This document shows, piece after piece, positions 6,601-40,839 of a DNA stretch of 42,157 nucleotides (positions within the stretch are counted from its first letter, which is position 1; every line of letters starts with the position of its first letter). The notes beneath the pieces are model-generated. The model was not told where the DNA came from. It saw nothing but the letters and a program-made list of their open reading frames with translations, and searched no databases. Location: assembly GCA_017626555.1 (NCBI GenBank), contig JAGAIM010000132.1, forward strand, positions 1 through 42,157. The letters run 5' to 3'. This DNA comes from Bacteroidales bacterium. GTDB lineage: Bacteria > Bacteroidota > Bacteroidia > Bacteroidales > UBA932. The position numbers were made by a program, and so were the translations under genes.

Positions 6601-8181
6601 CTATTTTCTCAAAGGGTTTTCGACTATGAATCTACAATATTCCAGATACATTTCCCTGTCTTTCTGATCAGGTGACGTAGCCAGTTCATACATAGCGTTG
6701 GTTCCGGAATATGTCGCTATCCTGGCCTTTCCGTAACAGCCCGCTCGCTTGAACTCCTGCATATAATCGCGCAAAAGTTGCTTGTTCCTTGCAGCCTGAG
6801 GATTGGGCTGTCCTTTCGGTGTCCCTTCAGCATCATTCGAAGTACGTACAGTCTCGAGAATAGATGAACTTGTACGAGGAACGCCAGACTCATACTGGCT
6901 CCATCCCGGTTCACCGTGCGAGCCCTCAAACTCGATCTCCATTCCGTGTCCGTACATATTCATTGTATTGAACACCCAACTCCATTCCTTCTTCTGCTTC
7001 TTCTCCGGATAGTCCCAATATTTGTTAGGCTGGAGCCAGGTATAGTCTATTCCCAGTTCGGCTGTCATATCATATCCGTCGGCCTGATAGTATGGTATCC
7101 AATGCAAGCCATACCTTCTCTCGTGCAGATAAGCGGAAACCGAAGGCAGTATCTGATCCCATCTCTTGTATTGATAATTCCATCCGTCCGGCTTCGCTAC
7201 CAGAATTTCGGAAAGTATATAGAAGCCAGCCAGTTCCAGATTCTCGGGCGAAGCCTTTTCCCAAGCCTCTCTGACATAATCGATATACCAGGTATAAGCC
7301 AGAATCTGATCTGATACATTCCTGAAATCAAGACGACGTCCGTACAATTCTCCCCAATAAGAAGTGGAAGAATTCTTGTCTGAGAAATATTCAAGCATAA
7401 CAGGATCCGGCATAGTAATGACCACACTGTGCCTGAAAGACGGCGAACCGATACGTGCAGCCGCATTTGCTATCGTCTGATCAAGCACATCGACAACACC
7501 TCCATCCTTCAACCAGTAATCCGCAAAATCCTTCCACGCTTTCTGATCCGCAGATTTCTCTTTACCATCAGGGATACATAGAACACTGTTGCTGGAAGCA
7601 TCTTCCCCTCCTATGAGCAGGAATGCTTCGTGCAACCATTGCTCCTTTCCTGTCTCATCTGTGAAAGTCACGTGAGGCAAAAGACGCTGCTCGTCCCACG
7701 TTGAAGGCTGCTTCTTTGTCACTCCCCCGGGAAGAAGATCGAGATCGGCGAAAAACGGTATTTCAGTACGCTCGATTTCCCAGGAATATAACGAAGGTGT
7801 CTTGAAGGAGACGCTGGCGACCTTTCCACACCGGCCTTCCCTCACACCCACTGCATATACTGTATATTCCACTTCTTTTTCAAGACCACCGATAAACAGA
7901 TCTCCATCTTCAACTGATGTCCCTTCCTCCACAATCTCCTCAGCCTCAGGAGCAGGCTCTGACATTTTCCGTGCAATGCCATACACAGCATCCGTATTGA
8001 TGCTCCTGACAGAAAGCAGGACACCATCTCCCTGAAACCGGTCAAAAGAAATCTCCACGACAGGATTAGGAATATACTCCGGCTCTTTCCGATTCTTGTC
8101 ACAGGCAGCAAATGCGAGCATAACACTCATCAGAAAGACACAGCACAAGGCCGCTACCGATATATTTGCTTTGAATCTCAT
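6601..8181 (-). CDS. DUF4855 lipoprotein A (FN3-like + DUF4855)
   Basis: A 526-residue lipoprotein (Cys27 in MLAFAACDKN). An FN3-like domain lies at about 35-130 and a DUF4855 domain at about 140-526. Shared with the other copies are PDPVMLEYFSD, a hallmark GFYILSE (E325), LQPNKYW and GMEIEFEGSHGEPGW (E415, E417, E419). The protein carries an insert rich in Ser/Thr (PRTSSSILETV ... NPQAARNK) that copies B and C lack but the fusion protein has. DUF4855 has no function known to me; the conserved Glu residues at the ends of hydrophobic segments resemble a TIM-barrel hydrolase site. Its ATG overlaps the stop of copy B by four bases. It is most likely a surface or periplasmic glycan-active enzyme. 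Confidence 0.75.
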   Translation of the reverse strand: MRFKANISVAALCCVFLMSVMLAFAACDKNRKEPEYIPNPVVEISFDRFQGDGVLLSVRSINTDAVYGIARKMSEPAPEAEEIVEEGTSVEDGDLFIGGLEKEVEYTVYAVGVREGRCGKVASVSFKTPSLYSWEIERTEIPFFADLDLLPGGVTKKQPSTWDEQRLLPHVTFTDETGKEQWLHEAFLLIGGEDASSNSVLCIPDGKEKSADQKAWKDFADYWLKDGGVVDVLDQTIANAAARIGSPSFRHSVVITMPDPVMLEYFSDKNSSTSYWGELYGRRLDFRNVSDQILAYTWYIDYVREAWEKASPENLELAGFYILSEILVAKPDGWNYQYKRWDQILPSVSAYLHERRYGLHWIPYYQADGYDMTAELGIDYTWLQPNKYWDYPEKKQKKEWSWVFNTMNMYGHGMEIEFEGSHGEPGWSQYESGVPRTSSSILETVRTSNDAEGTPKGQPNPQAARNKQLLRDYMQEFKRAGCYGKARIATYSGTNAMYELATSPDQKDREMYLEYCRFIVENPLRK

Positions 8182-9371
8182 TTTGCTTGTTTCAGAGGAT
8201 TCTCGATGATGAAGCGTCCGAGTTTATGGTACATATCCTTATCAGCGGCATCTTCCGATACTGCAAGTTCATACAAAGCGTTAGTTCCGGTATAAAGTAC
8301 AAACGGAGTGTTTCCATAAATTCCGCGTGACTTCGCATTATCGAGATATTCCTGGAATCTGGCCTTGTTTGCCTCTGCATACGGATTGGCTTCGCCATTT
8401 GAAAGCCTGCTGAGGATTGAAGACTTGAGCGGCTCACCGTGGGTTCCCTCAAACTCCAGTTCCATTCCAAGAGCATTGTCCTTGATTGTCTTTTCGATCT
8501 GATCCCAAGTCCACAACGCTCCCTCCCAATAATAGTTAGGCTGCATAACGACAAGATCAAAACCGAAATCCTTACCCTTCTCTATACCAGGAGCCATCGC
8601 ATACGGTACCCAGTAAAAACCCTCATTCAGGCTATGACAGTAGTCTGCCGCTGCCTTGATGGTCTTATCGTGCTCCTTATATTCATAGCGGAAATCTCCC
8701 GGTGTGGAAAGTTCCTCAGAAAGAACATAGAAACCGATAAGTTCGATATATTCGTAATCCGCCTCAGCAAATCCTGCACGGACAGCATCGATCATCCATC
8801 TGTATGCCTTGACACGGTCATCCACCTTTGAAAAATCGAGTGCGACGCCATCGATATCTCCCCAATAAACAGTGTTCATATTCAAACCTTTCATCGCATC
8901 CGAATAATGTTCGAAATAGACAGGATCCGGCAGTGAGAACACAATACCACGTTTTGAAGGAGGATTACCGATCCTCTGCGCAGCATCAGCAATGCACTTA
9001 TCCAAGGCAGCAAACCCATATTCTTCATCAAACCAGTAATCGATCTGCTCCTGCCAATGCTCTTTTCTTGAAGAGTATCTTCCATCATTTGCAATGGAAT
9101 ATGTCACTTCGTAATCATCTGTCCAGAGTTCCATCATAATCATATTGTCAAAGAACCAATGTTCCTGACCGTTCTGATCTGTATATATGACACTCTTCTC
9201 AAATCTTTCAGGAGTCCAAAGGTATGGATTACGTGCGCTATGACCGCCATAGCATATCGTCATATCCGTAATCTGACGGATTTCATCCTTTTCCCAATCA
9301 TAAAGTCCGGACTGTGTTCCGCAACCCGCCAGAATCGCAGAAGCAACAAAGAGCAAAGTAAATCGTTTCAT
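8178..9371 (-). CDS. DUF4855 lipoprotein B (DUF4855 only)
   Basis: A 397-residue lipoprotein starting at ATG 9371 (MKRFTLLFVASAILAGC, Cys17); a longer reading begins with TTG and would spoil the signal peptide. It has the DUF4855 domain almost from the mature N terminus, without FN3: DMTICYGGHSARNP, PDPVYFEHYSD, a GFYVLSEEL motif, MQPNYYWEG and MELEFEGTHGEPL. Copies B and C share DMxxCYGGHSARNP and the VYTDQNGQ(E/D)HWFFD segment nearly word for word, so they are the closest pair. It is the middle gene of three tandem copies; 17 bases separate it from copy C and it overlaps copy A. Confidence 0.78.
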   Translation of the reverse strand: MKRFTLLFVASAILAGCGTQSGLYDWEKDEIRQITDMTICYGGHSARNPYLWTPERFEKSVIYTDQNGQEHWFFDNMIMMELWTDDYEVTYSIANDGRYSSRKEHWQEQIDYWFDEEYGFAALDKCIADAAQRIGNPPSKRGIVFSLPDPVYFEHYSDAMKGLNMNTVYWGDIDGVALDFSKVDDRVKAYRWMIDAVRAGFAEADYEYIELIGFYVLSEELSTPGDFRYEYKEHDKTIKAAADYCHSLNEGFYWVPYAMAPGIEKGKDFGFDLVVMQPNYYWEGALWTWDQIEKTIKDNALGMELEFEGTHGEPLKSSILSRLSNGEANPYAEANKARFQEYLDNAKSRGIYGNTPFVLYTGTNALYELAVSEDAADKDMYHKLGRFIIENPLKQAK

Positions 9372-9388
9372 ATATAATTCATTTATTT

Positions 9389-10933
9389 TCAATACTTTAG
9401 CGGAGAATTAACAATAAATTCTCCAAACTCGTGGTATAGGTCTATATCTGAAGTTTCCTCAGATACCGCAAGTTCATAAAGCGCATTAGTTCCTGTATAT
9501 AGCACTATAGGCTTCTTCCCGTAAATGCCATATTTTCTGGCATTATCCATATATTCTGTAAAGCGTGCCTTATTTCTTTTGGCAGCGTCTGAATTTCCAA
9601 GTATCGATGTACCGTAGCCGTGCGAGCCCTCAAACTCGAATTCCATTCCCATATCATATCTGTTGATATAGTCACAGGTCACGTCCCAGTCCTTATTGTC
9701 CCAATAGTAATTGGGCTGAAGTATAGTCAGGTCAAACCCGAACTGTCTCCAATTCTGCAGAGCCCTGTTATGCCCCGGATCGTCATCACTGACGCTGTAA
9801 GGGATCCAATATAATCCCTCATTCACCGAGTGGCAGTAATCCGCCACCTGCGGTATAAGTTCCTCGTGCTGCTTATATTCATAACGCCATCCCCCTTGCA
9901 TAGAAAGAGACTCGGAAATGATATAGAAGCCAAGGAGTTGTATATATCTGTATTCCTTCTGCGCGAATCTCGCACGGACTTGATCTATAAACCATCTATA
10001 TGCCTGCAGTCTGTGCTCCATCCTGCTGAAATCCATCGGGGTTCCGTCTATTTCTCCCCAATATACGGTATTTTTGTCTTTCCCCGAAACACCTTTCGAA
10101 TAATTCTCGAAATAAACCGGATCTGGAATCGAGACTACCACATATCTCGGTGATGGAGGAGTTCCGATCTGTGCCGCTGCTTCTGCAATGCAATCATCCA
10201 GAGCCTGGAAACCATATCTGGAATCAAACCAGTAGTCCAGGAATCCTGTCCAATAATGTTTTCTCGAAGAACTCTTACCGTCATTTGCTATGGAATATGT
10301 AACCTTATAATTGTCATCCCAGATCTCAAGCATCAGCATCGAGTCAAAGAACCAGTGATCCTGACCGTTCTGATCAGTATATACGGCAGTCTTCCTGAAG
10401 CGGTTCTTGTCCCATACACGAGGGTTGCGCGCGCTATGGCCTCCATAGCATAATGCCATATCCGCGAATTCAGGCAAAGGATCCCGGCCTCTCTCCCATC
10501 TGTAGAGTCCGTTTTCATCCATTTCCTTGTCAAGAGGCTCATCTGCCACGATATCATTTGAAGGATCGTTCGGAGTGACCAGAGTATCACGCTTGACAGC
10601 ACTGTATCTTCCTTCGGAATTCACTGCAACTGCAAATATATGATATTCAGACTTTTCCTCCAGACCATCAATAGTAAAACGAGGCTTCTCTACTGGAGTC
10701 CCGGCAGAATATATAGCCTCTGCTTCCACATTCCGGACTTCATCCTTCTCTGCACAAAGATATCTGGTCTGGGATGCATTGATGGATTGGATCTCTACGC
10801 AAGCATCGTGTAAACCCACCGAAAGAACACTGATATCAACTGCCGGATTAGGTATATAAGAAGGCTTACCCTCCTCCTCGCAAGATGCGAGAAGAAGGGA
10901 TATAGCCATAAATATACTGAGTCTTCTTGTCAT
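9389..10933 (-). CDS. DUF4855 lipoprotein C (FN3-like + DUF4855)
   Basis: A 514-residue lipoprotein (MTRRLSIFMAISLLLASC, Cys18, followed by EEEG, which fits the acidic surface-export signal of Bacteroidota lipoproteins). An FN3-like domain occupies about 25-110. After a linker rich in Asp and Glu comes DUF4855 at about 145-514 with DMALCYGGHSARNP, PDPVYFENYSKG, GFYIISESL, LQPNYYWDN and MGMEFEFEGSHGYG. Its start overlaps the stop of the DUF1735 gene by one base (TAATG), so it is translationally coupled to the SusC/D part. The likely role is binding or cutting of the glycan at the cell surface; activity unknown. Confidence 0.78.
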   Translation of the reverse strand: MTRRLSIFMAISLLLASCEEEGKPSYIPNPAVDISVLSVGLHDACVEIQSINASQTRYLCAEKDEVRNVEAEAIYSAGTPVEKPRFTIDGLEEKSEYHIFAVAVNSEGRYSAVKRDTLVTPNDPSNDIVADEPLDKEMDENGLYRWERGRDPLPEFADMALCYGGHSARNPRVWDKNRFRKTAVYTDQNGQDHWFFDSMLMLEIWDDNYKVTYSIANDGKSSSRKHYWTGFLDYWFDSRYGFQALDDCIAEAAAQIGTPPSPRYVVVSIPDPVYFENYSKGVSGKDKNTVYWGEIDGTPMDFSRMEHRLQAYRWFIDQVRARFAQKEYRYIQLLGFYIISESLSMQGGWRYEYKQHEELIPQVADYCHSVNEGLYWIPYSVSDDDPGHNRALQNWRQFGFDLTILQPNYYWDNKDWDVTCDYINRYDMGMEFEFEGSHGYGTSILGNSDAAKRNKARFTEYMDNARKYGIYGKKPIVLYTGTNALYELAVSEETSDIDLYHEFGEFIVNSPLKY

Positions 10934-12945
10934 TACTCGACTTTGAAGTCTGGGTTGATCTCGAAGAGTGAAAGACCTACGTTCTGAATCATAGCAGCCA
11001 TATAGACCTTGCCGTTGATCTCACGTACCACACAGTCACCAGTCGAATGAGATGACGGATATGGAGAAACCACTGTTTCGTCAAGTTCATCCTGGAGCGG
11101 ACGATCCATAATGACATCCTGTGCCTGAAGAGCACTGAGAAGTCCCTCAGGAGTTCCTGCAGGATCTGCGATGACTCTCACACTACCCTTGGCAAGTGAT
11201 TCATCCAGAGCAACATACGAAATATAATGCTTTCCGTTGTATGAGAAGAAATTATATCCGTGTGTGAGTGCAAGTCCCAGATCACCTGCCGAAGTGAATG
11301 TGGTTCCTTCGGCATTATTGTAATACTGGCCGTATGCAGTGGATGTCACGAAGAGATACGATGGAACCGCACTTCCAAGACCTGCTGTACCAGGATACAT
11401 ATAGGCATCACCGATAGAGTTGGCATCATTTACAGAAGCATTGTACGACATCGCTCCACGAGCCCATCCGTTTGCACCACCGCCATACCACTCACCGATA
11501 CCCTCGGCTGCAGTCATACCGTGTCTTACGATTACGCCCTGACCCCAGTCTTTGAGATAGATTTCACCATTGCCCCAAGTTCCGTAAACCTGGAATCTGT
11601 CACCGAGACGACGACCTGCAGTTGAAACCGCATACTTGGCAGGAGCGCTGTTGATGCCGTTGAGCCATACATAGTAGAAGATGTTGTTTCCATCAGTCTC
11701 GAGGCTTGAAGCCACAAGCAGATCCTTGCCACCGTTTACTTCCGGATTCTCGTTTGGTATCATTCTCACGCAAGAGAGAGTATGAGTACCGCCTGAAACA
11801 CCTTCCACATTCACATCGATGACCTTGGTAGGGTCAGCGATGCTGATACCCTTGAGGACAGCAGCACCACCTGCGGCCTGAGGAACATAGATATACTCGT
11901 CATCCATAGTGATGTTTCGTACATCGCCTACACCAAGATATGTCTGCCAAGCATTCTCTGATGAAGTAGCATACAGACCCCAGAGACGGTTGAAGAGTTG
12001 AGGTGGAACAGGCCACATTCCTTTGATTGCAATGTATGTGATCTGATTCTGGAGTCCCAGACGTTCAATAGATGTACTCTTGATCTTCACAGGAATCAGA
12101 AAACCGCCGTGGTCTTCCCAAGGAACGATGGCTCCATTCTCGAAGAGTACATCAGTATTGAGAGTCACGGGATATGTCACGTATGCCTCCCCTGCCTTTA
12201 TCGATGGATCGGCAAAAGTAATGAGTCCTTCCGGAGCGGCAACATAATCGGTTCCGTTCTTTTCATTGTATGCTGCAATGAGTTCATTATCTATTTCAAG
12301 GTCAATATTAACATCCAAAGTAGGAAGTGCATTATCGATCCTGATTGTAACATCCATATTCTCGCTTACCGGAGCAGGAGCATCCCAAAGAACAGTCTTT
12401 GTAAGATAGTCAGTCTCCACATTGATGTTCGACTTCACCAGATTAACGATAAGGAACTCACGGCCTTCGTTTACAAGAAGGTCCGGAGAACTGAGACCCA
12501 GAGGAATAGCGTAATTGTAATTGTCAGTATCAGACATAGCGTCATCAACCTTTGCTACATCCCAGGTTACAGCGACAGTCTTGGTCACATCCTCGACACC
12601 GAAATGAACGATGCACTCATCTGCACCATTGAAAGCATACATATCCTTTGAAATCGGAAGATATTCCTTGACCGTAACATCACGGCTATCGTTATATCTT
12701 ACCAGGTCAAATTCAGATCCTGTGATCTTAACGTCAGCCTCTGAGAAGCCCTTACCGCTCTTGATCACAGCAAAGTCATACTGTCCGCTATAAATCGGCC
12801 AGGTTACGACTGCCTCCTGCTCTGTTCTGTTGAATCCGAAAGAGTCATCCGGCAAAAAGTTGTTTCTGTCATCCACACAAGACGCTACGGCTGTAATCGT
12901 CAGCGCAGACGCTAGAATATTCTTAATAATCTTCTTCATATCCAT
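10933..12945 (-). CDS. Surface glycan-binding-type lipoprotein (DUF1735 + propeller-like)
   Basis: A 670-residue lipoprotein (Cys23 in ITAVASCVDD; an alternative start is Met3). Residues about 135-300 hold a DUF1735 module: the segment with IAAYNEKNGTDYVAAPEG and SIKAGEAYVTYPV is its hallmark. The C-terminal 350 residues are repeats such as NITMDDEYIYVPQ and GKHYISYVALDE that look like a beta-propeller (DUF4623-like). Proteins of this design directly after SusD are usually surface glycan-binding proteins that present substrate to the SusC/D pair. It lies eight bases after susD and overlaps the next gene by one base. A propeller enzyme cannot be excluded. Confidence 0.75.
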   Translation of the reverse strand: MDMKKIIKNILASALTITAVASCVDDRNNFLPDDSFGFNRTEQEAVVTWPIYSGQYDFAVIKSGKGFSEADVKITGSEFDLVRYNDSRDVTVKEYLPISKDMYAFNGADECIVHFGVEDVTKTVAVTWDVAKVDDAMSDTDNYNYAIPLGLSSPDLLVNEGREFLIVNLVKSNINVETDYLTKTVLWDAPAPVSENMDVTIRIDNALPTLDVNIDLEIDNELIAAYNEKNGTDYVAAPEGLITFADPSIKAGEAYVTYPVTLNTDVLFENGAIVPWEDHGGFLIPVKIKSTSIERLGLQNQITYIAIKGMWPVPPQLFNRLWGLYATSSENAWQTYLGVGDVRNITMDDEYIYVPQAAGGAAVLKGISIADPTKVIDVNVEGVSGGTHTLSCVRMIPNENPEVNGGKDLLVASSLETDGNNIFYYVWLNGINSAPAKYAVSTAGRRLGDRFQVYGTWGNGEIYLKDWGQGVIVRHGMTAAEGIGEWYGGGANGWARGAMSYNASVNDANSIGDAYMYPGTAGLGSAVPSYLFVTSTAYGQYYNNAEGTTFTSAGDLGLALTHGYNFFSYNGKHYISYVALDESLAKGSVRVIADPAGTPEGLLSALQAQDVIMDRPLQDELDETVVSPYPSSHSTGDCVVREINGKVYMAAMIQNVGLSLFEINPDFKVE

Positions 12946-12953: not shown

Positions 12954-14936
12954 TTAGAATCCGTAGTTCTGTGTAAGGTTGGTCATTTCAGCAAGTTGAT
13001 CACTGTCGAAAGGAAGGAGATAATCCCTATCTGTGAACTTAGCGTGCTTTGCAAGAGGGAAATCTTCGCTTGAACGAACCCACGAATCGTGATAATCAAC
13101 AGCATCGTTAAGATTGAGTGTCCAGTTGAGAACAGGGAAATTCTGCTTTGCTGTCATCCAACGTGTATTATCATAGAAGTGCATAGGTCCCTCGATAGCG
13201 AACTCGATCATCTTCTCCTGACGGAAACACCAAGTAAGAAGTTCCGGATCCGCTTCGATGCCAGGATATGCCTCCTTGAGTGAATTAAGACCTGAACGCT
13301 CACGAATCATATCGAGATACTTCACAGCCTCTGCATAGTCACCTGTCGCGATGCAGCACTCTGCATAGTTGAAATATATCTCGGCAAGACGGAAGGCTGG
13401 ATAAACATAATGTATCTGCTGATAATCCGCTCCGACATCGAGAGGGTTGTTTGCCGCATAAAGACGACGCCAAGCATAACCGAAGTAGTTGTTTGTTGAT
13501 GTCTGGTCCCAGCGCTCGCAAAGGGCACCTGATCCTCTCCAGAAATGACATCTCATATCCTCTGCTGTCCAGGTTGTTGAAGATGTCTTAGGGTTTGTCA
13601 TAGTCTTGAGTTTAGGATCGCAAGGCCAGTAATATCCGTTAGGAACAAGAGATGCATAGTAACGTGGCTCACGTCCGAGAGTAGAGTTATGTGCCTCGAA
13701 CTCGCCTGCCCACTCTGCCTCGAACTGGGTAGTCTTGCTGAATCCCTCTGAAACATAACCTGACTGAGCATCGATTACAGGCTTGGAGTAGTCATCCATT
13801 CCGGAAGTTCTGTCGTAGCCTGTCACAGGATAACGTCCGCTCTCATACATAGCGTATGCATCGACAAGTTTGAATGAAGGAGTAAGCGACTGCCATCCCT
13901 CAACGGTGATGTTACGTGGAGCACAGGCACCGATGAATCCACCTGTACGGCCAAGCCAGTCAGTGTAGAAATTCATCCACCATCCCCAGATTGTCTCTTC
14001 GTTCCACTGCTTGAAGAAAATCTGCTGGTAGTTGCGGATACCGTCAACAAACTTGTCACCGGTCTGAGTCTCCGCCTTCACGAGATGGTAGTAATCGAGA
14101 TCGATAACAGCCTTTGCAGCCTTTTTTGCCTCCTCCCATCTTGTAGGATCATACTCCTGAGAGAATATCTTGTCACCATAATAATTGGTCATACCCTTGT
14201 AAAGGTCGTTGCCGTTGTAGAGAGGTGAAGCAGCATAAAGGAGTACTCTTGCCTTGAGAGCCATAGCGGCACCCTTTGTAGCACGTCCCATATCGGATCC
14301 TTCCTGAAGACCTACCTCTGTAATGCTCATAGGAAGTACCTCGATAGCCTTGTCAAGTTCGGAAACTATGAAATTGACATTCTCGTCGAATGTATTTCTG
14401 TCAAGTGAAGAACCTACGACATCGGTAGGAGCGGCCTTGTCTCCCCATACGATTACAGGACCGTATGTACGGAAAAGGCAGAAATAGTAGAAAGCACGCA
14501 TAAAACGAGCCTCAGCCTTGATATAGTCACGAACACTCTGGTTATCCTCGACATCAAGGTGAATATTGTCGATCACGAGCGTACAGTGTGCGATAGCCTT
14601 GTAATAATTCTCCCACAGATTGTAACTTGTGATGGAAGCAGGGCTGTAGTCACCTACACGAAGGTCAAACACGTTGTTCGCGTATGCAGATGCGTTGACC
14701 TGACGCGCATCAGTACGACCTGAAAATCCACCTTCAGTGGTAGCATCTACAGGATTCTCCTCCTTTGGAAGATAAGCATACATATGTGCTGCAAGTTGAC
14801 GGGCTGTTCCTCTCTTGCTGAACATCTCTTCAATGGTTGCCTGATCCTGAAGTTCCACATCGAAGTAGGAGTCACAGGAAACGGCACCGAGCGCAAGCAC
14901 TGCGATTGCTGATAATGTATATAATATTCTTTTCAT
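12954..14936 (-). CDS. SusD/RagB-type nutrient-uptake lipoprotein
   Basis: A 660-residue lipoprotein (MKRILYTLSAIAVLALGAVSC, Cys21). The N-terminal half has the SusD helical repeats (YYKAIAHCTLVIDNI, YIKAEARFMRAFYYFCLFRTYGPV, AMALKARVLLYAASPLY) and the C-terminal part the RagB/SusD signature (YPAFRLAEIYFNYAECCI, YLDMIRERSGL, FRQEKMIEFAIEG). It forms the lid that captures oligosaccharides over the SusC pore at the outer membrane. At about 660 residues it is at the long end for SusD. It follows susC by 15 bases. The ligand cannot be deduced from sequence. Confidence 0.97.
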   Translation of the reverse strand: MKRILYTLSAIAVLALGAVSCDSYFDVELQDQATIEEMFSKRGTARQLAAHMYAYLPKEENPVDATTEGGFSGRTDARQVNASAYANNVFDLRVGDYSPASITSYNLWENYYKAIAHCTLVIDNIHLDVEDNQSVRDYIKAEARFMRAFYYFCLFRTYGPVIVWGDKAAPTDVVGSSLDRNTFDENVNFIVSELDKAIEVLPMSITEVGLQEGSDMGRATKGAAMALKARVLLYAASPLYNGNDLYKGMTNYYGDKIFSQEYDPTRWEEAKKAAKAVIDLDYYHLVKAETQTGDKFVDGIRNYQQIFFKQWNEETIWGWWMNFYTDWLGRTGGFIGACAPRNITVEGWQSLTPSFKLVDAYAMYESGRYPVTGYDRTSGMDDYSKPVIDAQSGYVSEGFSKTTQFEAEWAGEFEAHNSTLGREPRYYASLVPNGYYWPCDPKLKTMTNPKTSSTTWTAEDMRCHFWRGSGALCERWDQTSTNNYFGYAWRRLYAANNPLDVGADYQQIHYVYPAFRLAEIYFNYAECCIATGDYAEAVKYLDMIRERSGLNSLKEAYPGIEADPELLTWCFRQEKMIEFAIEGPMHFYDNTRWMTAKQNFPVLNWTLNLNDAVDYHDSWVRSSEDFPLAKHAKFTDRDYLLPFDSDQLAEMTNLTQNYGF

Positions 14937-23589: not shown

Positions 23590-23614
23590 TGTGTTTGAAT
23601 CAGGTTTTTCAATT

Positions 23615-23634
23615 ATGTGTGGTGTAGTGTGGTG
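23615..23634 (-). repeat. Tandem decamer (CACCACACTA, CACCACACAT), left copy pair
   Basis: Read in the direction of the minus-strand transcript, two 10-base units with core ACCACAC follow each other without a gap, directly after the -7 box. The same core, again as two abutting decamers in the direction of transcription, follows the plus-strand promoter at 23700-23719. Ten-base phasing places both units on one face of the helix. A shared operator or a shared 5' leader RNA element is likely. Confidence 0.65.
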
Positions 23635-23664
23635 CAAAAGTACGCATTTTCTTGCAAATTCCAA
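23635..23664 (-). promoter_or_regulatory. Promoter of the MFS-to-DUF6259 operon
   Basis: On the minus strand TTG (23664-23662), a 19-base spacer and TACTTTTG (23642-23635) match the Bacteroidota consensus fully. About 46 bases separate the -7 box from the MFS ATG. It overlaps the divergent plus-strand promoter by 13 bases. Confidence 0.75.
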
Positions 23665-23683
23665 CACAATTTTACTAATTTTG
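23652..23683 (+). promoter_or_regulatory. Promoter of the peptide/fusion-lipoprotein operon
   Basis: TTG (23652-23654), a 21-base spacer and TAATTTTG (23676-23683) match the Bacteroidota consensus. The 5' untranslated region would be about 60 bases up to ATG 23753. Its -33 region lies inside the spacer of the opposing promoter, so simultaneous occupation by two polymerases looks sterically difficult. Confidence 0.72.
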
Positions 23684-23699
23684 CGGCGTGAAACCAAAA

Positions 23700-23719
23700 A
23701 ACCACACCAAACCACACCA
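23700..23719 (+). repeat. Tandem decamer (AACCACACCA twice), right copy pair
   Basis: Two perfect copies of AACCACACCA abut each other, starting 17 bases after the plus-strand -7 box, inside the probable 5' leader. They share the core ACCACAC with the inverted pair at 23615-23634 on the other side of the promoters. Possible binding site for a regulator not encoded in this window. Confidence 0.65.
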
Positions 23720-23752
23720 ATTTTAAAGAAAATATCACAAAAAAAGAACAAT

Positions 23753-33179: not shown

Positions 33180-35417
33180 ATGAAGAAGACCATTATCCTT
33201 TCAGCAGTTGCACTTGCTCTTGCAGCCTGCTGCTCACAGCCGAAATTCGACGGCCCGACCTACCTAAACCCTAATGCTCCTATCGAGGAAAGGGTGGAGG
33301 ATGCTCTCGCTAGAATGACTCTCGAAGAGAAGGTGGGTATGACCACTGCACAGTCCAAGTTCAGTTCACGTGGAGTTCCACGCCTTGGTATCCCTGAAGT
33401 ATGGCACACAGACGGTCCTCACGGAATCCGTCCCGAAGTGCTTTGGGATGAGTGGGATCAGGCAGGATGGACAAATGACTCCTGCACAGCCTTCCCGGCA
33501 CTCATCAACCTTGCAGCAACTTGGGACAAGGAAATGTCTATGCTTTATGGTATCAGCATCGGAGAAGAAGCACGCTACCGCAAGAAGGATATCCTTCTCG
33601 GACCAGGAGTGAACATCTGCCGTACTCCTTACAACGGACGTAACTTCGAGTATATGGGTGAGGATCCGTTCCTTGCAGGCCAGATGGTGGTGCCATACGT
33701 TCAAGGAGTCCAGAAAAACGGTGTTGCAGCCTGTGTGAAGCACTATGCAGTAAATAATCAGGAGTTCCAGCGCACTCAGTCCAATTCGGTAGTTGACGAC
33801 AGAACACTCCACGAAATCTATCTCCCAGCCTTCAAGGCAGCCGTTCAGGAAGGTGACGCCTGGGCTATTATGGGATCATACAATCTCTACAACGGACAGT
33901 ACAACTGCCACAATAAGAAACTCCTCTGCGACATCCTCAAGGGTGACTGGGGATTTGACGGAGTTGTAGTCAGCGACTGGGGCGGATGCCGCGACAGCGA
34001 AGAAGCCGTCCTCAATGGTCTCGACATCGAGATGGGTACCTGGACAAACGGTCTGACAGGGGCTGCCAGCGACAGTTACAGGAACTATCATTTGGCAGAC
34101 CCTTATCTCGAAGGACTCAGAAGCGGCAAATACACAACCAAGGAACTCGACGACAAGGCACGCCGTATCCTCCGCACTATCTTCCGCACAAGTATGCGTC
34201 CGGAGCCTAATTACGGCCGCTTTGTATGTCCTGAGCACTATCAGGCTGCAAGAGATATCGCAGCAGCAGGTGTAGTTCTCCTCAAGAACGAGAACAATAC
34301 CCTTCCGCTCAATGTACCGGAAGGTGGAAAGATCCTTCTCGTCGGAGAGAATGCAGTGAAGAAGATGGTAGTTGGAGGCGGTAGTTCGAATCTCAAGACT
34401 GCATACGAGGTCAATCCTCTCGAGGGTATCCGGAATGCATTTGCAGGTAAGGCTGATGTACAGTGGGTACGTGGATACGTAGGTGACACTTCCACATCAT
34501 ACAATATGGTGGATACAGGTCAGGATCTTACCGACAACCGTACTCCTGAAGTACTCATCGCTGAAGCAGTAGAGGCTGCAAAAGATGCAGACTACGTTAT
34601 CTTTGTAGGAGGTCTCAACAAAAGTGCACATCAGGACAACGAAAGTACTGACCGTCTGCAACTCGACCTTCCATACGCACAGGAAGATGTGATAAGGGCG
34701 CTGGCTCCTGTAGCAAAGAATCTCGTGGTCGTGAACATTTCCGGTTCACCGGTATCAATGCCTTGGGCTGACATTGCAGGCGCAATCGTTCAGGGATGGT
34801 ACGGTGGTACCGAGTCAGGAAATGCACTTGCAGACGTGCTTACCGGCAAGGTAAACCCATCAGGCAGAATGCCTTTCACAGTTCCTTACAAATATGAGGA
34901 TGGCCCTATCAAGACCGAGCGCCAGTATCCAGGTATCAAGGAAGAGGGCGACGAATATTGGCAGACTCATTATGACGAAGGCGTATATGTAGGTTACAGA
35001 TGGTATGACACTAAGGAAATTCCTGTTCAGTGGCCATTCGGACACGGACTCAGTTACACCACATTCGAATATGGCGAGGCTAAGGCTGCAAAGGCTTCTA
35101 TGACCGCTGACGGAAAGATGACTGTGACTGTAGATGTCAAGAACACCGGAGATCGTGAAGGTGCTGAAATCGTCCAACTCTACATCGCTGACCCAGTAGC
35201 CGGCATTGACCGTCCTGCAAAAGAACTCAAGGGCTTTGAGAAGATCACCCTCAAGCCAGGTGAAAGCAAGACAGTATCATTCGAGATCGACGCTGCAGAC
35301 CTCAGTTACTACAGCATCGAGGATAACGGATGGAAGGCAGAAGCCGGTGAATTCCAGGCTCTTATCGGTCCTTCATCAGAAGATATCAGAACTACTGCAA
35401 GTTTCGAACTCAAATAA
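33180..35417 (+). CDS. GH3-family glycosidase (beta-glucosidase-like) lipoprotein
   Basis: A 745-residue lipoprotein (Cys17 or Cys18 in ALAACCSQP). The GH3 barrel spans about 35-340, with KHYAVNNQEFQR and the nucleophile D266 in VVVSDWGG. The alpha/beta sandwich domain lies at about 360-590, with E488 in DNESTDRLQLDLP as probable acid/base, and a C-terminal FN3-like domain at about 645-735 (VTVDVKNTGDREGAEIVQLYI). Motifs and order match GH3 beta-glucosidases and beta-xylosidases. It is monocistronic: own promoter upstream and a strong terminator downstream. The preferred sugar is not known. Confidence 0.93.
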   Translation: MKKTIILSAVALALAACCSQPKFDGPTYLNPNAPIEERVEDALARMTLEEKVGMTTAQSKFSSRGVPRLGIPEVWHTDGPHGIRPEVLWDEWDQAGWTNDSCTAFPALINLAATWDKEMSMLYGISIGEEARYRKKDILLGPGVNICRTPYNGRNFEYMGEDPFLAGQMVVPYVQGVQKNGVAACVKHYAVNNQEFQRTQSNSVVDDRTLHEIYLPAFKAAVQEGDAWAIMGSYNLYNGQYNCHNKKLLCDILKGDWGFDGVVVSDWGGCRDSEEAVLNGLDIEMGTWTNGLTGAASDSYRNYHLADPYLEGLRSGKYTTKELDDKARRILRTIFRTSMRPEPNYGRFVCPEHYQAARDIAAAGVVLLKNENNTLPLNVPEGGKILLVGENAVKKMVVGGGSSNLKTAYEVNPLEGIRNAFAGKADVQWVRGYVGDTSTSYNMVDTGQDLTDNRTPEVLIAEAVEAAKDADYVIFVGGLNKSAHQDNESTDRLQLDLPYAQEDVIRALAPVAKNLVVVNISGSPVSMPWADIAGAIVQGWYGGTESGNALADVLTGKVNPSGRMPFTVPYKYEDGPIKTERQYPGIKEEGDEYWQTHYDEGVYVGYRWYDTKEIPVQWPFGHGLSYTTFEYGEAKAAKASMTADGKMTVTVDVKNTGDREGAEIVQLYIADPVAGIDRPAKELKGFEKITLKPGESKTVSFEIDAADLSYYSIEDNGWKAEAGEFQALIGPSSEDIRTTASFELK

Positions 35418-35481: not shown

Positions 35482-36645
35482 TTATAATGTTTCAAGAATC
35501 TGCCAGATCTGGTAGAGGCCTCTTGGAACGTGGAAACAACCTTTCCACTTTCCGCCCTTGAGAGTCAGGAGAACTTCTCCGCGGCGGTTGAGGTAGCCGT
35601 ACCACTCAGGATATTCCTGATCCTTGAAGTGAGTCCACATATAATTGTGAATCTTCTCGAACCACTCCAGACATTTCTCGTTGCCTGTAAGTTGGTATGC
35701 CTTGATGAAGCAGATTGCTGACTCAAGGTGTACCCACCAGAGTTTCTGATCCCACTCAAGTTTCTGCATCGGTGCACCCTTGAGATCCTGGAAGTAGAAG
35801 ATTCCGCCGTACTCCTTGTCCCATCCGAACTCGACCACGCTCAGAGCGATCTCTACGCACTTGTCGATGAGAGCCTTGTCGTTTCTGCGGATACCGAGGT
35901 TCATCATAAACCATAATGCCTCAAGATCGTGACCCGGATTGATCTCACGGCCTTCAAAACAATCTATAGGAGTTCCGTCAGGAGCCACATTCTCAAGCAT
36001 CACTCCCAGTTCGGGATAATAGAATACATTGAGAATCTCGCTGAGGCACTCATCTATGGTCTGGTCAAGCAATGACTTGTCAGGGAGGATGTTCTCCACC
36101 TCAAGAGCCATATTGCAGATAATCATAGGGAGTGCGAAACCCTTCATCGGACGTGTTCCGGGATATGACTTCTCCCAACGTCCCTTAGGATCGTTACGAC
36201 GGTCAAGAATCCTCTGGAAAGTCTTCAGCGCGATCTCCTTGTACTCTTCGCTGCCGGTAGCCTCTGCAAGTTGCGCAAAAGCCATACAAGCGAATGTATT
36301 AGAGAAGATGTTATATGGCTGGATGATAGGCTTTCCCTCACGGGTCACCGAGAAATAGAAGTCATAATTGCCATCGTGCGCATATTTCTTCAGGAACTCC
36401 GCTCCCTGTATAGCGCAATCAAGCCACTCCTGTTTCTTCTCAACCTTATTATACAACATCGCGAACATCCACACTTCCCTTCCCTGAAGCCAGATGAATT
36501 TATCCGTATCAAAAACGCTTCCGTCACGGTCGAGGCAAGAAAAGTATCCGCCATACTCCAGATCCTGTGACTTCTCAAGCCAGAAAGGAAGGACGTTGTC
36601 CAAAAGTTCGCTCTTATATTGAGCAGCAAGTTTCTTGAAATCCAT
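35482..36645 (-). CDS. AGE-family epimerase (N-acylglucosamine / cellobiose 2-epimerase family)
   Basis: A 387-residue cytoplasmic protein that forms an (alpha/alpha)6 barrel. Conserved family residues are visible: R56 in QGREVW, H239 and E242 in NPGHDLEALW, H306 in WWVHLE and H372 in CFHVPRG. These match the catalytic His pair and substrate-binding Arg of AGE enzymes, which epimerise at C2 or isomerise free sugars (GlcNAc/ManNAc, cellobiose, mannose/fructose). Size is typical (about 390-400). WWVHLE is closer to the monosaccharide AGE type than to cellobiose epimerases, but this is a soft call. It has its own promoter-like sequence and lies between two terminators, so it is a single-gene unit. 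Confidence 0.85.
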   Translation of the reverse strand: MDFKKLAAQYKSELLDNVLPFWLEKSQDLEYGGYFSCLDRDGSVFDTDKFIWLQGREVWMFAMLYNKVEKKQEWLDCAIQGAEFLKKYAHDGNYDFYFSVTREGKPIIQPYNIFSNTFACMAFAQLAEATGSEEYKEIALKTFQRILDRRNDPKGRWEKSYPGTRPMKGFALPMIICNMALEVENILPDKSLLDQTIDECLSEILNVFYYPELGVMLENVAPDGTPIDCFEGREINPGHDLEALWFMMNLGIRRNDKALIDKCVEIALSVVEFGWDKEYGGIFYFQDLKGAPMQKLEWDQKLWWVHLESAICFIKAYQLTGNEKCLEWFEKIHNYMWTHFKDQEYPEWYGYLNRRGEVLLTLKGGKWKGCFHVPRGLYQIWQILETL

Positions 36646-36801: not shown

Positions 36802-38367
36802 TTACTGAAGCGGGAAGAGATACTTCTCAACAGAATCCATAAAAGGATCAACTGCGTAAGCAGCAAGTTTACCATTCTCAGCTTTTACGAATATATCACA
36901 ATAATAGAATGCATCAGCATTAAGAGTATGAGGAGTCATCTGAGTATGATACAACATCTTAGCAGCCTTAGGATCATCAATATTCAAAATTGTTACTTTA
37001 CTGTAATTATTCGCAGCGAAGCTACCAGTAAGAAGTCCTAAATATTTCTTACCATTAACCTCTGCTGTAGAAATACAGTTATGATTATCATCCCAATCGG
37101 TATTTGTCACATATGACTCAGTCCACTCTGTACCATCATAGTAGAAGAGGTTGTAAATAGCACCATAGCTAATAGCGAATAGACCATCAGCAAGAGTTGG
37201 ACCAGCTGGAGCTACAACACCTGTTGAAGCATCCCAAGAACCTTCTTTAAGATCCACATATTTAGGATCGGCAACAGCACCGTCAGTAACTTCCCAAATG
37301 ATGGCATGTCCGCCACCATCACAAATATAAGCTGTAATTACGGCATTCTTAGTAACATCACCCTTTACACGGAAGTTACCCATCTCTGTTGAATAGTAGT
37401 TAGCTGAGTTGTATGAAACCAGGCTCTGATAAGTACCATCCTGATTAACCTTATAAAGCTCAATAAGAGTACCATCGGCAACCCGATCTTTGTCACTATC
37501 CCACAAAGCATCTGGAGTAGAAACCAAAAGATTACCTGCGTCGTCTACGTGAACACCACCTGCTACGAATCCCGCAGGAAGAGCAACTTTCTGAGCGTTC
37601 TCACCAGTAGCTTCATCAACTGTCCAAAGTTCACCATTTGCAGTGAAGTATACCTTGTCACCAAGAACAGCAATACCTGCACGTCCAGCTGTAGCTCCCA
37701 TTGCAGAAAGTGACTGAGTCCATGTTATAGCACTCCATTGCTCCTGAGCAATAACGATAGTCTCAACAAGTCCGAGTTCACTATATACGTAGAGAGTTGC
37801 TTTTCTTTCAGCACCGTTGACTTCCTGTGCAGGAGCTGTAAAGACGAGCTTATCTATAGCGTAAGCCTTAGTCTCAACAAGCCAAGGCTCAACACCATCA
37901 GCGTAAACTACCTCGTAAGTATAGTCAACGTTGTGTCCTACTTCGATCTCTAGGGTCTCACCCTTGAAAGAGAGTGTGTAAGTAGCATCAGCATTCACGT
38001 CGATAGCGTTCTTCTGGAGCTGAACTACATTGACGAGAATTGGCTCAAGACCCTCAACTGAAATTTCGAGGGTAGCTTTACGGTTCTCTTTGCCGGTATT
38101 AGCAATGGCGTCAAACTTGATTGAAGCATCACCAGCCTCACCGGACTTTGGAGAGATAGAAAGCCACTCTGCAACACCTTCACCAGTGAGCTGTGCAGTC
38201 CAAGCTGCATTTGCATTGAATGTGAAAGTGAGTGGTGTCTCAAGATTTTCAGTACCTGCAGTAGGAATTGTCACCTCTGCCGGTGTAAAATCTACGTGAG
38301 GAACAAATTCCTCCTGACAAGCGACAACAGCAAAAGCTGCCATCAGAAATAAAGCAATTTTTTTCAT
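36802..38367 (-). CDS. BACON-domain lipoprotein with propeller-like C-terminal part
   Basis: A 521-residue lipoprotein (MKKIALFLMAAFAVVAC, Cys17, followed by QEEF, an acidic surface-export signal). A BACON domain lies at about 25-120 (TFTFNANAAWTAQLTGEG, WLSISPKSGEAGDASI, NRKATLEISVEG); a second beta module follows at 120-215, then a propeller-like region (VLGDKVYFTANGELWTVDEATGE, VHVDDAGNLLVSTPDALWD, NGKKYLGLLTG). BACON modules bind carbohydrate or hold other domains away from the surface. It is last in its operon, 28 bases after the GHL10 gene. It is probably a surface glycan-binding protein; an enzymatic propeller is less likely because no catalytic motif is visible. Confidence 0.75.
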   Translation of the reverse strand: MKKIALFLMAAFAVVACQEEFVPHVDFTPAEVTIPTAGTENLETPLTFTFNANAAWTAQLTGEGVAEWLSISPKSGEAGDASIKFDAIANTGKENRKATLEISVEGLEPILVNVVQLQKNAIDVNADATYTLSFKGETLEIEVGHNVDYTYEVVYADGVEPWLVETKAYAIDKLVFTAPAQEVNGAERKATLYVYSELGLVETIVIAQEQWSAITWTQSLSAMGATAGRAGIAVLGDKVYFTANGELWTVDEATGENAQKVALPAGFVAGGVHVDDAGNLLVSTPDALWDSDKDRVADGTLIELYKVNQDGTYQSLVSYNSANYYSTEMGNFRVKGDVTKNAVITAYICDGGGHAIIWEVTDGAVADPKYVDLKEGSWDASTGVVAPAGPTLADGLFAISYGAIYNLFYYDGTEWTESYVTNTDWDDNHNCISTAEVNGKKYLGLLTGSFAANNYSKVTILNIDDPKAAKMLYHTQMTPHTLNADAFYYCDIFVKAENGKLAAYAVDPFMDSVEKYLFPLQ

Positions 38368-38395: not shown

Positions 38396-39799
38396 TTATA
38401 ATGTTTCCAAATATTGGTCGAAGGCCTTCTTGATATCTGCCCAATAATCATACATCTTGATATGACAGAGATCGAAGAAGAACATCCCCTCAGTCGAAGC
38501 GTTGATGCAGGCATCAACGATGTCAGGCATAAGATGTCCCTGCTTTCCGTCAGTAAATCCAGTCGAGTTTCCGATATCAGGTCCACCGATGAAAGGAACA
38601 TCACCCGCAAAGATTGTCTTTGCCCTGTTGCAGAAGCCCTGCATTGTCCATTCGCTGTTGCCGTAGATAGACTGGGTCGAAGCATAGGCGCCGATAATCA
38701 TAATGTCACAATGATCTGCATATCCGAACTTGTTATACTCGGCAGAAGCCCAGTTATACACATTGCAGGCATTGTAGTTCGGACTTGCCCAGTTGACCCC
38801 TGAATAGTAGTAACTGCTGTACCAAGCTCCGACATATGCGCCAAAACGGATGTCAGGATTGACGGAGTGCACTCTCAAAGAAGCCTTCTCCATAAAATCG
38901 TGGATGTTCTTGGCACGGAACTCCATCCATTTCTTCTGCATCTGAGTTGCCGGACTACTTAGTTTTTCTGCTCCTGGAGCAAAAACATCAGATGGCCAAT
39001 TAGCCACCTTAGCACCTATATACTCCTCAAATTTTGCCCGTGAAACATCTGAAAAGTCGCTCTGCAGGTCATTATCATCATAACGGCAACGATCGAGGAT
39101 GATACCCTTTACATCATATACAGCAAGATCCTCAAGAATACCGAGGAGATACTCGACGACCTCGTCATTCGCAGGATTGAGGAACTTTGTGCCGTCACCC
39201 ATATCCATACAGTTTACAAGCCCGTCGGCAGTGTTCACGACAGATGCCCACTCCTTCTTCATAGAACCGTCGAAAAGCGGACCGTTGTTACCAAGGCCAT
39301 AAGGGCATTGCTTACCGCCGACCATTGTGTTGATGGCGGCATATACATCCAGTCCCACGTCCTTTCCGGCATCTATGAATGCCTGAAGGTAGTCAAAACT
39401 CTCAGTCCTTTTCAGCCATACATATCCACCGGTAACCCAGGCATCAACCTGAGTGACAGGACCTTCAACGTCTGATTTGAAGAGAACACCAGCGGTAGTA
39501 GGACGGACTTCAACGATGACACCGGTAAAGCCAGTCTCCTTGAGACGTGCCATATCCTTGGAGATATTCTCCTTGCTGTTAGCATAGTCCTTGAAATTGG
39601 CGGCAGCATCTATCCATACAAGACGAGCCTTGGCTTCCTTTACATCTGGCTGAGGATCTTCAGGACCTGGTTCTTCCTGATCTGGCTGTGGAGTCTGTTC
39701 TGCCCAATTATTATTCCACAGAGGGTCATCATTAGGGTCATCACAAGCGACAAAAGCCACAAGTGAGAGAATCAGCATTATGTTTCTTAAAATCTTCAT
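38396..39799 (-). CDS. GHL10/DUF187-type glycoside hydrolase-like lipoprotein
   Basis: A 467-residue lipoprotein (Cys19 in VAFVACDDPNDDP, with a strongly acidic export signal). The barrel begins at about 55 with ARLVWIDAAANFKDY and shows the series TGFTGVIVEVRPTTAGVLFKSD, GLDVYAAINTM, DVKGIILDRCRYDDND, SVNPDIRFGAYVGAWYSSYY, DHCDIMIIGAYAST and GMFFFDLCHIK. This is the pattern of the 'glycosyl hydrolase-like 10' family, whose few studied members cut polysaccharides or peptidoglycan. D and R in LDRCRYDD and acidic residues at strand ends are candidate active-site residues. It follows the phosphodiester glycosidase gene by five bases. Substrate unknown. Confidence 0.72.
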   Translation of the reverse strand: MKILRNIMLILSLVAFVACDDPNDDPLWNNNWAEQTPQPDQEEPGPEDPQPDVKEAKARLVWIDAAANFKDYANSKENISKDMARLKETGFTGVIVEVRPTTAGVLFKSDVEGPVTQVDAWVTGGYVWLKRTESFDYLQAFIDAGKDVGLDVYAAINTMVGGKQCPYGLGNNGPLFDGSMKKEWASVVNTADGLVNCMDMGDGTKFLNPANDEVVEYLLGILEDLAVYDVKGIILDRCRYDDNDLQSDFSDVSRAKFEEYIGAKVANWPSDVFAPGAEKLSSPATQMQKKWMEFRAKNIHDFMEKASLRVHSVNPDIRFGAYVGAWYSSYYYSGVNWASPNYNACNVYNWASAEYNKFGYADHCDIMIIGAYASTQSIYGNSEWTMQGFCNRAKTIFAGDVPFIGGPDIGNSTGFTDGKQGHLMPDIVDACINASTEGMFFFDLCHIKMYDYWADIKKAFDQYLETL

Positions 39800-39804
39800 C
39801 GATT

Positions 39805-40839
39805 CTATTTTATCATTACTGTACTTCCAACTGCTCGCTGAGAACCGTCAGAAACCTTGATTGTCTGCTTTCCGTTAACAAGCATACAACTTGATCCGCC
39901 ACCATCAAGATTGATTGCTTCAACACATCCCAGGTCGAGAAGAACATTGGCAACATCAGCAGTTGTCAGTCCCTTTACCCCTTCTGTCATCTCACGTCCT
40001 TCGCAGACAAAGGTGATCATTTTTTTATCAACTGTGATACCGATAGCAGTGCGAGGCTGATCAGAATCCGGTCCTATGCCTGAAGTGCCGTTGAAAAGTT
40101 CTTCCACATATGAATCTCTGAACTTACCTCCATCGATAAGAAGAGGGCCACCACCGATAGCAGTCTTAGCTGAAAAAGCCTTTGCTCCTTCAGGATATGA
40201 CGCAGATGGAGTAGCTGCAGGCTTGGCTTCCCAAGTGTTGTCCGCAGGTGATGGGTACATATAATGATTGCCCCCAGTTCTATAATATGTCCAGCAAGCA
40301 TCAAAATCTCCTCCCTCCGACATCAGAAAAGCCGCACGGGTAGGATAATATATGGTGACCCAATCCTCTGATGCATAGTTGATATTATATGCTAGGACCT
40401 CCGAATTTCTCACAGCCAGACTGGAAGAATAGTTCTTCCCACCTGAAGAGTAGAAGAAGCCTGCATTGATCACTATCGGCCAATTTGCCTCAGCATATAC
40501 GGCAGCAGGTGTCTTGAACGCATCTGTCGTACCCTCCATAGCCGCATCATTGATGCTCCATATATCCCATTGTGCGGAAGCCATATCCGCCACTGCGATA
40601 TATGCAACAACTTTCTTTCCTTCAAGATTCTCCGGAGAGCGATATACCCTGATATATTCCGGCAAATCATTATAATCGGCCGAGACATCTGTCCACTTAT
40701 CCAAAGTGGCATCTTCAGGAGTTTCCGGAACTTCCTGCTCCGGCTCCTGACCCTGCCAAGGCCAATCAGGTTGCTTATCGGATGTTTCCGTACATCCGAT
40801 AAGACCTGAAATAAGTAATGCTGCAAGAATTATCTTCAT
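39805..40839 (-). CDS. Phosphodiester glycosidase lipoprotein (third copy, diverged)
   Basis: A 344-residue lipoprotein (MKIILAALLISGLIGC, Cys16). After an acidic linker the NAGPA/PF09992-like domain covers about 55-344: VYRSPENLEGKKVVAYIAVADM, INAGFFYSSGGKNYSSSLAVRN, KTAIGGGPLLIDGGK, GIGPDSDQPRTAIGI, KKMITFVCEGRE and the hallmark N310-LDGGGSS near the end. It has no FN3 modules and differs clearly from the two plus-strand copies, so it is an older paralogue. It lies between the DUF5018 gene and the GHL10 gene with gaps of five bases each. Predicted reaction: hydrolysis of a sugar-1-phosphodiester bond at the cell surface. Confidence 0.82.
   Translation of the reverse strand: MKIILAALLISGLIGCTETSDKQPDWPWQGQEPEQEVPETPEDATLDKWTDVSADYNDLPEYIRVYRSPENLEGKKVVAYIAVADMASAQWDIWSINDAAMEGTTDAFKTPAAVYAEANWPIVINAGFFYSSGGKNYSSSLAVRNSEVLAYNINYASEDWVTIYYPTRAAFLMSEGGDFDACWTYYRTGGNHYMYPSPADNTWEAKPAATPSASYPEGAKAFSAKTAIGGGPLLIDGGKFRDSYVEELFNGTSGIGPDSDQPRTAIGITVDKKMITFVCEGREMTEGVKGLTTADVANVLLDLGCVEAINLDGGGSSCMLVNGKQTIKVSDGSQRAVGSTVMIK

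Follow-up and report, generated by a model that had tools for sequence, protein, structure and literature searches.

A SusC/D-type locus of a Bacteroidales bacterium pairs DUF4855 with NAGPA-type domains and may serve an aminosugar-containing glycan

Introduction

Polysaccharide utilization loci (PULs) of the Sus type from Bacteroidota combine SusC, SusD and lipoprotein genes with genes for glycosidase-like, transporter, kinase-like and isomerase-like proteins. All these gene types are present in the locus described here, which is located on contig JAGAIM010000132.1 of a Bacteroidales bacterium (assembly GCA_017626555.1; the complete stretch analysed, 42,157 nucleotides, is called the window) and which contains four DUF4855 domains together with three domains of the NAGPA (phosphodiester glycosidase) type. 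In contrast to described Sus-type PULs it was not matched to a described substrate class, and it relies on the families DUF4855, DUF6259 and DUF4985. The sialic acid route of Bacteroides fragilis, which runs through an N-acetylglucosamine (GlcNAc) 2-epimerase and a ROK-family kinase, offers a second comparison: both gene types are present in the window, but no lyase or sialidase family is among its Pfam matches.

A similar set of families is known from Bacteroides thetaiotaomicron. The gene lists in PMC10434189 include BT0442, a DUF4855 protein, with an alpha-N-acetylglucosaminidase, a TonB receptor, SusD, family-10-like glycosidases and a calcineurin-like phosphoesterase nearby. The operon BT0439-BT0443 together with BT0438 and BT0446-BT0454 resembles the window in DUF4855, TonB receptor/SusD, family-10-like glycosidases and a sugar porter of the major facilitator superfamily (MFS) (PMC10434189, PMC6989115), a likeness of family names and not of compared sequences. 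NAGPA and a GlcNAc 2-epimerase are not named for this operon in these gene lists, which are confined to regulated genes.

The NAGPA-type proteins of the window have a Pfam domain in common with the human uncovering enzyme NAGPA (6pkg) and with the solved PF09992 proteins 3ohg and 6ozd. RTA(V/I)G and NLDGGGS stretches align between the window proteins and the solved ones, at only about 27-41 bits. Unlike the human enzyme, the window proteins are predicted bacterial lipoproteins, two of them with fn3 repeats and one fused to DUF4855. Fusions of NAGPA to extracellular calcineurin-like phosphoesterases are mentioned in PMC11488536, whose authors anticipate activity on phosphoesters, whether in teichoic acid, in extracellular DNA or in lipid head groups. 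In the open-access literature found, DUF4855 has no assigned function, PF16147 does not appear, and "phosphodiester glycosidase" does not occur together with "polysaccharide utilization"; among the matches listed, none describes a PUL for phosphate-linked wall or capsule glycans.

Results

DUF4855 and NAGPA-type domains are paired beyond chance

The proteins of the window were scanned against Pfam-A, with DUF4855 defined by PF16147 (curated cut-off 27 bits) and NAGPA by PF09992 (25 bits). The four DUF4855 and three NAGPA domains reported in a preliminary description of this DNA were recovered at the same places and far above these cut-offs (Table 1). The corresponding searches of the whole assembly (3.09 Mb, 222 contigs, 95% complete) revealed no further copy of either family. 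One protein comprises both domains; read from position 23838, DUF4855 covers residues 411-782 and NAGPA residues 1286-1416. The copies in the window are not independent, as some of them are local duplicates. The DUF4855 proteins 8178-9392 and 9389-10933 are 58% identical, and 23838-28100 and 28114-30012 have NAGPA halves that arose as tandem copies of each other, with 53% identity over 637 residues. The third NAGPA protein (39805-40839) is distant, with 27% identity to the second.

For distance counts we used an even sample of 14 DUF4855 genomes besides the window's own and a limit of 20 kb. Expected numbers were calculated from the covered share of each genome, and significance was estimated by Poisson statistics. 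Rows of the window's own genome were excluded from the NAGPA and epimerase counts, as was the fragment row G757:C11:126579-127106, which adjoins a kept DUF4855 row. Six of the 28 NAGPA copies were located near DUF4855, with 0.40 expected (P 4e-6). They belong to six genomes from six family-level groups, at less than 5 kb in G726, G744, G745, G757 and G766 and at 18 kb in G240; G757 is a member of the window's genus, the other five are not. The control family GH43, which is common in plant-glycan loci, showed no enrichment (1/99 rows near DUF4855, below the family cut-off; 0.87 expected). The preliminary description had made its proposal dependent on co-occurrence beyond chance in other genomes, and the pairing survived this genome-wide count. 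DUF4855 is a rare family, present in 5 of 395 evenly drawn genomes of the phylum and 11 of 393 of the order; NAGPA is more widespread (69 of 198 phylum genomes). All three counts include the window's own genome.

A related set was formed by 68 DUF4855 loci of named records. Most of these records are metagenome assemblies of Bacteroidales and many have ruminant-gut titles; the flanks covered were at most 10 kb and often ended at contig edges. NAGPA profile matches were present in 21 of these loci, spread over four of nine groups at 60% identity (67 loci tabulated). Both domains within one protein were found twice, in the window and in L036:11176-15249, where the order is DUF4855, DUF6259, NAGPA. 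Neighbouring proteins were tallied for 133 of 186 proteins, hand-picked and mostly the nearer ones, with the 25 commonest families listed per set; SusC-, SusD- and DUF4855-type genes, proteins below 220 aa and proteins spanning a join had been omitted beforehand. Among the families listed, NAGPA was the largest in the first neighbour set (5/73 proteins), and the complete tally contained NAGPA and GH3 (5 each), DUF6259 (4), GH20, GlcNAc_2-epim, GH92 and the rhamnosidase-type Ig domain Ig_Rha78A_N (2 each) and NAGLU (1). Taken together, the pairing of DUF4855 and NAGPA is not a matter of chance and recurs in other genomes.

Neighbouring genes point to N-acetylhexosamine

The neighbours of DUF4855 point to N-acetylhexosamine (HexNAc). 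This aminosugar theme, which the preliminary description did not emphasize, consists of a GlcNAc 2-epimerase in the window and the glycosidase families GH20 and GH89 in related genomes, and it gives the best indication of the substrate. The window epimerase reaches 515-527 bits with the two best solved GlcNAc 2-epimerases and at most 81.5 bits with cellobiose 2-epimerases, which rules out an assignment to the latter type. Partner families other than NAGPA (epimerase, NAGLU, GH20, DUF6259) were picked after the neighbourhoods had been viewed, so that their P values are exploratory; near-counts of DUF6259, GH20 and GH43 were tallied by eye. In the even sample the 20-kb range around DUF4855 contained five of 22 GlcNAc_2-epim copies (0.27 expected, P 1e-5). 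Four of these neighbours show 40-78% identity to the epimerase of the window, the fifth (G377) 27%.

GH20, DUF4855, GH89 and NAGPA stand in one row in G757; GH3 is close to this row, and an epimerase follows at a distance of 12 kb. Protein groups whose representatives carry the GH20-type or the NAGLU (GH89) Pfam domain occur in 28 and 10 loci of the related set, respectively. A GH20 copy of G744 is located 20.6 kb from DUF4855, just beyond the limit. GH89 was also considered as a general partner of DUF4855, which the evenly drawn genomes do not support (1/14 copies). In the window's own genome, one GH20 copy and the sole GH89 are about 3 kb apart on a contig other than that of the DUF4855 locus (G000:C43:117139-122218). 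A NAGLU domain fused to an Exo_endo_phos domain in L071:18199-21102 could represent a glycosidase-phosphoesterase fusion.

The row in G726 consists of GHL10/DUF4985, NAGPA, DUF4855, a calcineurin-like phosphoesterase, one further gene, an ADP-ribosylglycohydrolase-like gene and DUF4434, and resembles the BT0439-BT0443 region of B. thetaiotaomicron with NAGPA in addition. The ADP-ribosylglycohydrolase-like gene and DUF4434 lie at L119:3159-5783, beside DUF4855, NAGPA and the phosphoesterase.

NAGPA and epimerase genes also lie close together in genomes without DUF4855

In the NAGPA-bearing genomes among 198 phylum genomes, three of 38 epimerases were within 5 kb of NAGPA (0.13 expected, P 3e-4); at 20 kb the count was again 3/38 (0.52 expected, P 0.016). 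For this test 18 weak or fragment rows, none of them near NAGPA by eye, and two own-genome rows were excluded. The members of the three pairs are at most 2 kb apart and come from genomes without DUF4855 (G065, G127 and G046, loci L134, L135 and L136). They have the order MFS transporter (BT1-type), NAGPA, epimerase in common; in G065 and G127 DUF4434 separates NAGPA from the epimerase. G046 and G127 also encode an N-acetylmuramoyl-L-alanine amidase domain close to the pair (the flank in G065 was scanned in part), and G046 in addition a nearby fusion of Glucosamine_iso and PIG-L domains. The epimerase of G046 belongs to the GlcNAc type, and that of G065 shares 65% identity with it. The NAGPA proteins of the three loci carry Golvesin_C and a type IX sorting tail. 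Thus NAGPA is tied to aminosugar genes independently of DUF4855, in one lineage and with a mannosidase alongside.

DUF4855 contains nearly invariant glutamates

For the analysis of conservation, 131 DUF4855 sequences were taken from the related loci and from the evenly drawn genomes; many of these sequences are closely related, and positions follow the numbering of protein 8178-9392. Glu226 is present in all 131 sequences, Glu313 in 130 and Glu311 in 129, and all 25 distant sequences retain Glu226 and Glu313. Gly178, Trp199, Gly220, Tyr222, Trp261, Pro263 and Tyr349 are likewise invariant, and Gln284 and Pro285 never vary among the 130 sequences that span these positions. Strictly kept acids beside aromatic residues are consistent with a glycosidase, although they do not prove catalysis. 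Because of the three invariant or nearly invariant glutamates, DUF4855 is probably an enzyme; a barrel fold and glycosidase activity are putative features. When a profile of 74 domains was searched against the PDB, no solved relative was detected (best E 0.22), and scanning of the 74 members up to E 10 revealed no second Pfam family in more than two of them. Comparison by hhalign with single DUF4434, GHL10, DUF6259 and epimerase proteins gave probabilities below 1%, values which are uninformative with one-sequence targets.

Lipoboxes could be read in the translations of the DUF4855, NAGPA, DUF6259, GHL10 and GH3 proteins. As assumed in the preliminary description, the internal ATG starts at 9371 and 23883 agree better with the lipoprotein signals than do the mechanically assigned TTG starts (9392 and 23838). 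Its prediction of DUF4855 as a glycan-active family is strengthened by the glutamates, the predicted lipoprotein signals and the SusC/D context.

Organization of the locus

The SusC and SusD genes are adjacent, and the BT_3987-like, the three single DUF4855 and the DUF6259 genes are located downstream on the same strand, the arrangement of a Sus-type PUL. The import and catabolism set that had been described along with the SusC/D pair was found to be present (SusC, SusD, MFS, ROK, GH3, GH127-like and GlcNAc 2-epimerase; Table 1). In the even sample DUF6259 is the strongest partner of DUF4855 (5/9 copies within 20 kb, 0.17 expected), and fusions of the two occur in L044 and L036. The GH127-like and GH3 proteins and the isomerase-like proteins 18962-20833 and 20864-22327 suggest a role for sugars of other kinds. 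The first of the isomerase-like proteins shows 75-95% identity across nine aligned relatives, the second 90-96% in eight related loci. The locus probably extends past the window, because the DUF5018 protein reaches the window end and its match does not include the beginning of the profile. At 461-2280 tandem genes for a glycosyltransferase and a calcineurin-like phosphoesterase are followed by outer-membrane beta-barrel, DUF4136 and DUF4251 genes, which are probably outside the locus.

Table 1. Predicted features of the DUF4855/NAGPA locus (positions in the window)
Position	Strand	Feature	Basis
4426..6591	-	DUF6259 lipoprotein	PF19773 E 2.9e-23; family often beside or fused with DUF4855
6601..8181	-	DUF4855 lipoprotein, diverged copy	PF16147 E 2.6e-51, 175 bits; lipobox FAAC
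8178..9371	-	DUF4855 lipoprotein	PF16147 E 6.5e-60, 203 bits; lipobox LAGC
9389..10933	-	DUF4855 lipoprotein, N-terminal extension	PF16147 E 1.2e-62, 212 bits; lipobox LASC, then EEE
10933..12945	-	BT_3987-like N domain protein, presumed surface glycan-binding	PF08522 E 2.1e-16; homologues in 50 loci, window included
12954..14936	-	SusD-type protein	PF07980 E 1.8e-32; PF14322
14952..18056	-	SusC-type TonB-dependent transporter	Pfam plug and CarboxypepD_reg domains
18097..19095 (true start probably near 18975)	-	ROK-family sugar kinase-like protein	PF00480 E 3.5e-10; 3mcp (named glucokinase) E 5e-9
18962..20833	-	623-aa protein, mannose-6-phosphate-isomerase-like C-terminal half	1qwr E 5.5e-5; homologues in 31 loci, window included
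20864..22327	-	Sugar-isomerase-like protein, very distant from L-arabinose isomerase	PRK02929 E 2e-5 (NCBIfam, far below cut-off); 4lql E 0.013
22327..23751	-	MFS transporter, presumed inner-membrane sugar importer	PF07690 E 7.2e-55
23883..28100	+	Fused DUF4855 - fn3 repeats - NAGPA lipoprotein	PF16147 E 5.2e-48, 164 bits; PF09992 E 5.5e-28, 98.7 bits; lipobox TVSC
28114..30012	+	fn3 - NAGPA lipoprotein, tandem duplicate of the C-terminal half of the preceding protein	PF09992 E 1.5e-28, 100.6 bits
30025..32040	+	GH127-like protein	PF07944 E 4.9e-24; PF20736
32079..32969	+	296-aa protein	No Pfam match at E 0.001; follows GH127-like genes in relatives
33180..35417	+	GH3 lipoprotein	PF00933, PF01915, PF14310; lipobox LAAC
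35482..36645	-	GlcNAc-type 2-epimerase (predicted interconversion of GlcNAc and N-acetylmannosamine)	PF07221 E 1.4e-76; 515 bits to 2gz6
36802..38367	-	BACON domain protein, presumed glycan-binding	PF13004 E 1.3e-9
38396..39799	-	GHL10 + DUF4985 lipoprotein, glycosidase-like	PF16373 E 5.4e-32; PF02638 E 6.5e-12; lipobox FVAC
39805..40839	-	Single-domain NAGPA lipoprotein	PF09992 E 1e-25, 91.3 bits; lipobox LIGC
40845..42157	-	DUF5018 protein, probably cut by window end	PF16410 E 2.9e-43, profile positions 145-352 of 352

Discussion

We favor the reading that the locus is a SusC/D PUL for a HexNAc-rich glycan containing GlcNAc and N-acetylmannosamine (ManNAc), probably with HexNAc-1-phosphodiester links, and estimate its probability at about 0.45, somewhat below even. 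In such a pathway lipoproteins, presumably at the surface, would bind the glycan, and DUF4855 would cut it together with DUF6259 and GHL10, all three acting as putative glycosidases by means of conserved glutamates. The NAGPA-type domains would free the sugar of a sugar-1-phosphodiester. The pieces would be imported through SusC/D and next through the MFS transporter; GH3 may trim them, the GlcNAc 2-epimerase would interconvert ManNAc and GlcNAc, and the ROK kinase would phosphorylate the product for entry into metabolism. An epimerase is to be expected only where the products include ManNAc. Wall teichoic acid has the linkage unit ManNAc-GlcNAc-1-P, and there are capsules built on sugar-1-phosphates; both combine ManNAc or GlcNAc with a sugar-1-phosphodiester and are candidate substrates by their chemistry, and the evidence favors neither.

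Several points weigh against this reading. NAGPA was absent within 20 kb in eight of the 14 other DUF4855 genomes, so that DUF4855 is not bound to NAGPA; two of the eight have their DUF4855 on a short contig (G668, 7.7 kb; G556, 17.3 kb), and G679, G748, G162 and G377 lack NAGPA genome-wide. SusC/D-type genes were near DUF4855 in only nine of the 14 genomes, and DUF4855 is therefore not confined to PULs. The phosphodiester step is predicted at the level of the family name NAGPA, and the one window copy compared with the human uncovering enzyme gave a weak match of about 36 bits. In the even sample GH20 enrichment near DUF4855 is weak (3/62, P 0.05) and NAGLU is not enriched, with 0.23 expected for its single copy; like all partner P values apart from that of NAGPA, these are exploratory. 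Neither GH20 nor GH89 is encoded in the window, the three GH20 and one GH89 of the genome being on other contigs. A single family-level group (f25) accounts for the three NAGPA-epimerase pairs, which are for this reason not independent, and a GH38 alpha-mannosidase-type gene is present in the loci of G065 and G127. Furthermore, the GH127-like and GH3 genes have no clear role in the use of an aminosugar glycan, and a phosphatase was not identified within the locus in the window.

The preliminary description had proposed a dedicated system for phosphodiester-linked glycans, which our results support in part. Its association of the two families is real and recurrent, whereas its phosphodiester chemistry is limited to what the family assignment of NAGPA suggests and to a minority of the DUF4855 genomes. 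A glycan with an aminosugar is indicated, possibly with phosphodiester links. It appears rather doubtful that the locus stands for an undescribed class of PULs for HexNAc-1-phosphodiester glycans (wall teichoic acid linkage units of Gram-positive bacteria, or sugar-1-phosphate capsules from other gut bacteria), with DUF4855 as a new glycoside hydrolase family beside, and twice fused with, an uncovering-type enzyme. We describe the locus as an orphan type of PUL that contains a probable new enzyme family, and not as a wholly new kind of system.

Among the alternatives, a PUL for a phosphate-free HexNAc glycan of the mucin, heparan or sialoglycan kind deserves the most attention, even if we consider it unlikely. 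The NAGPA domains would then be ordinary alpha-HexNAc glycosidases, and the epimerase would take ManNAc from sialic acid. The GH20 and GH89 neighbours in related loci, the many records with ruminant-gut titles and the presence of both gene types of the B. fragilis route are in line with it. Sialidase and sialate-lyase families are missing from the Pfam matches of the window (the rest of the genome was not searched), and the same epimerase type accompanies NAGPA in genomes where an amidase gene is close by, both of which speak against it.

A mixed or plant-glycan PUL, with GH3, GH127-like, GHL10 and DUF4855 acting on a plant polysaccharide and NAGPA in a side-chain or accessory role, seems improbable to us. 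It would account for the GH127-like and GH3 genes of the window, the eight genomes without NAGPA nearby, the herbivore-gut origin of many relatives and, among the families listed in the neighbour tally, GH3 (5/133) and Ig_Rha78A_N (2/133). It does not agree with the lack of GH43 enrichment or with NAGPA as the largest listed family of the first neighbour set. We attach similarly little weight to DUF4855 as a surface glycan-binding protein, with the cutting left to NAGPA, GHL10, DUF6259 and GH3. Three diverged copies follow SusD and the BT_3987-like gene in tandem, many related loci have two, and the position after SusD is usual for binding proteins; such proteins, however, seldom retain acid residues as strictly as Glu226, Glu313 and Glu311 are kept here, along with invariant Trp and Tyr residues. 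That the co-occurrence reflects shared descent and local duplication without a functional link is very improbable, since NAGPA neighbours in six evenly drawn genomes of six family-level groups (one of them the window's genus) and two separate DUF4855-NAGPA fusions stand against the tandem duplication inside the window and the concentration of 56 of 67 related loci in two groups at 60% identity.

For the DUF4855 family, the links to NAGPA and GlcNAc 2-epimerase established by counting, together with GH20 and GH89 in relatives, provide a short list of substrates. If the reading of a HexNAc glycan with phosphodiester links is true, gut Bacteroidota would scavenge phosphate-linked wall or capsule glycans from other microbes.

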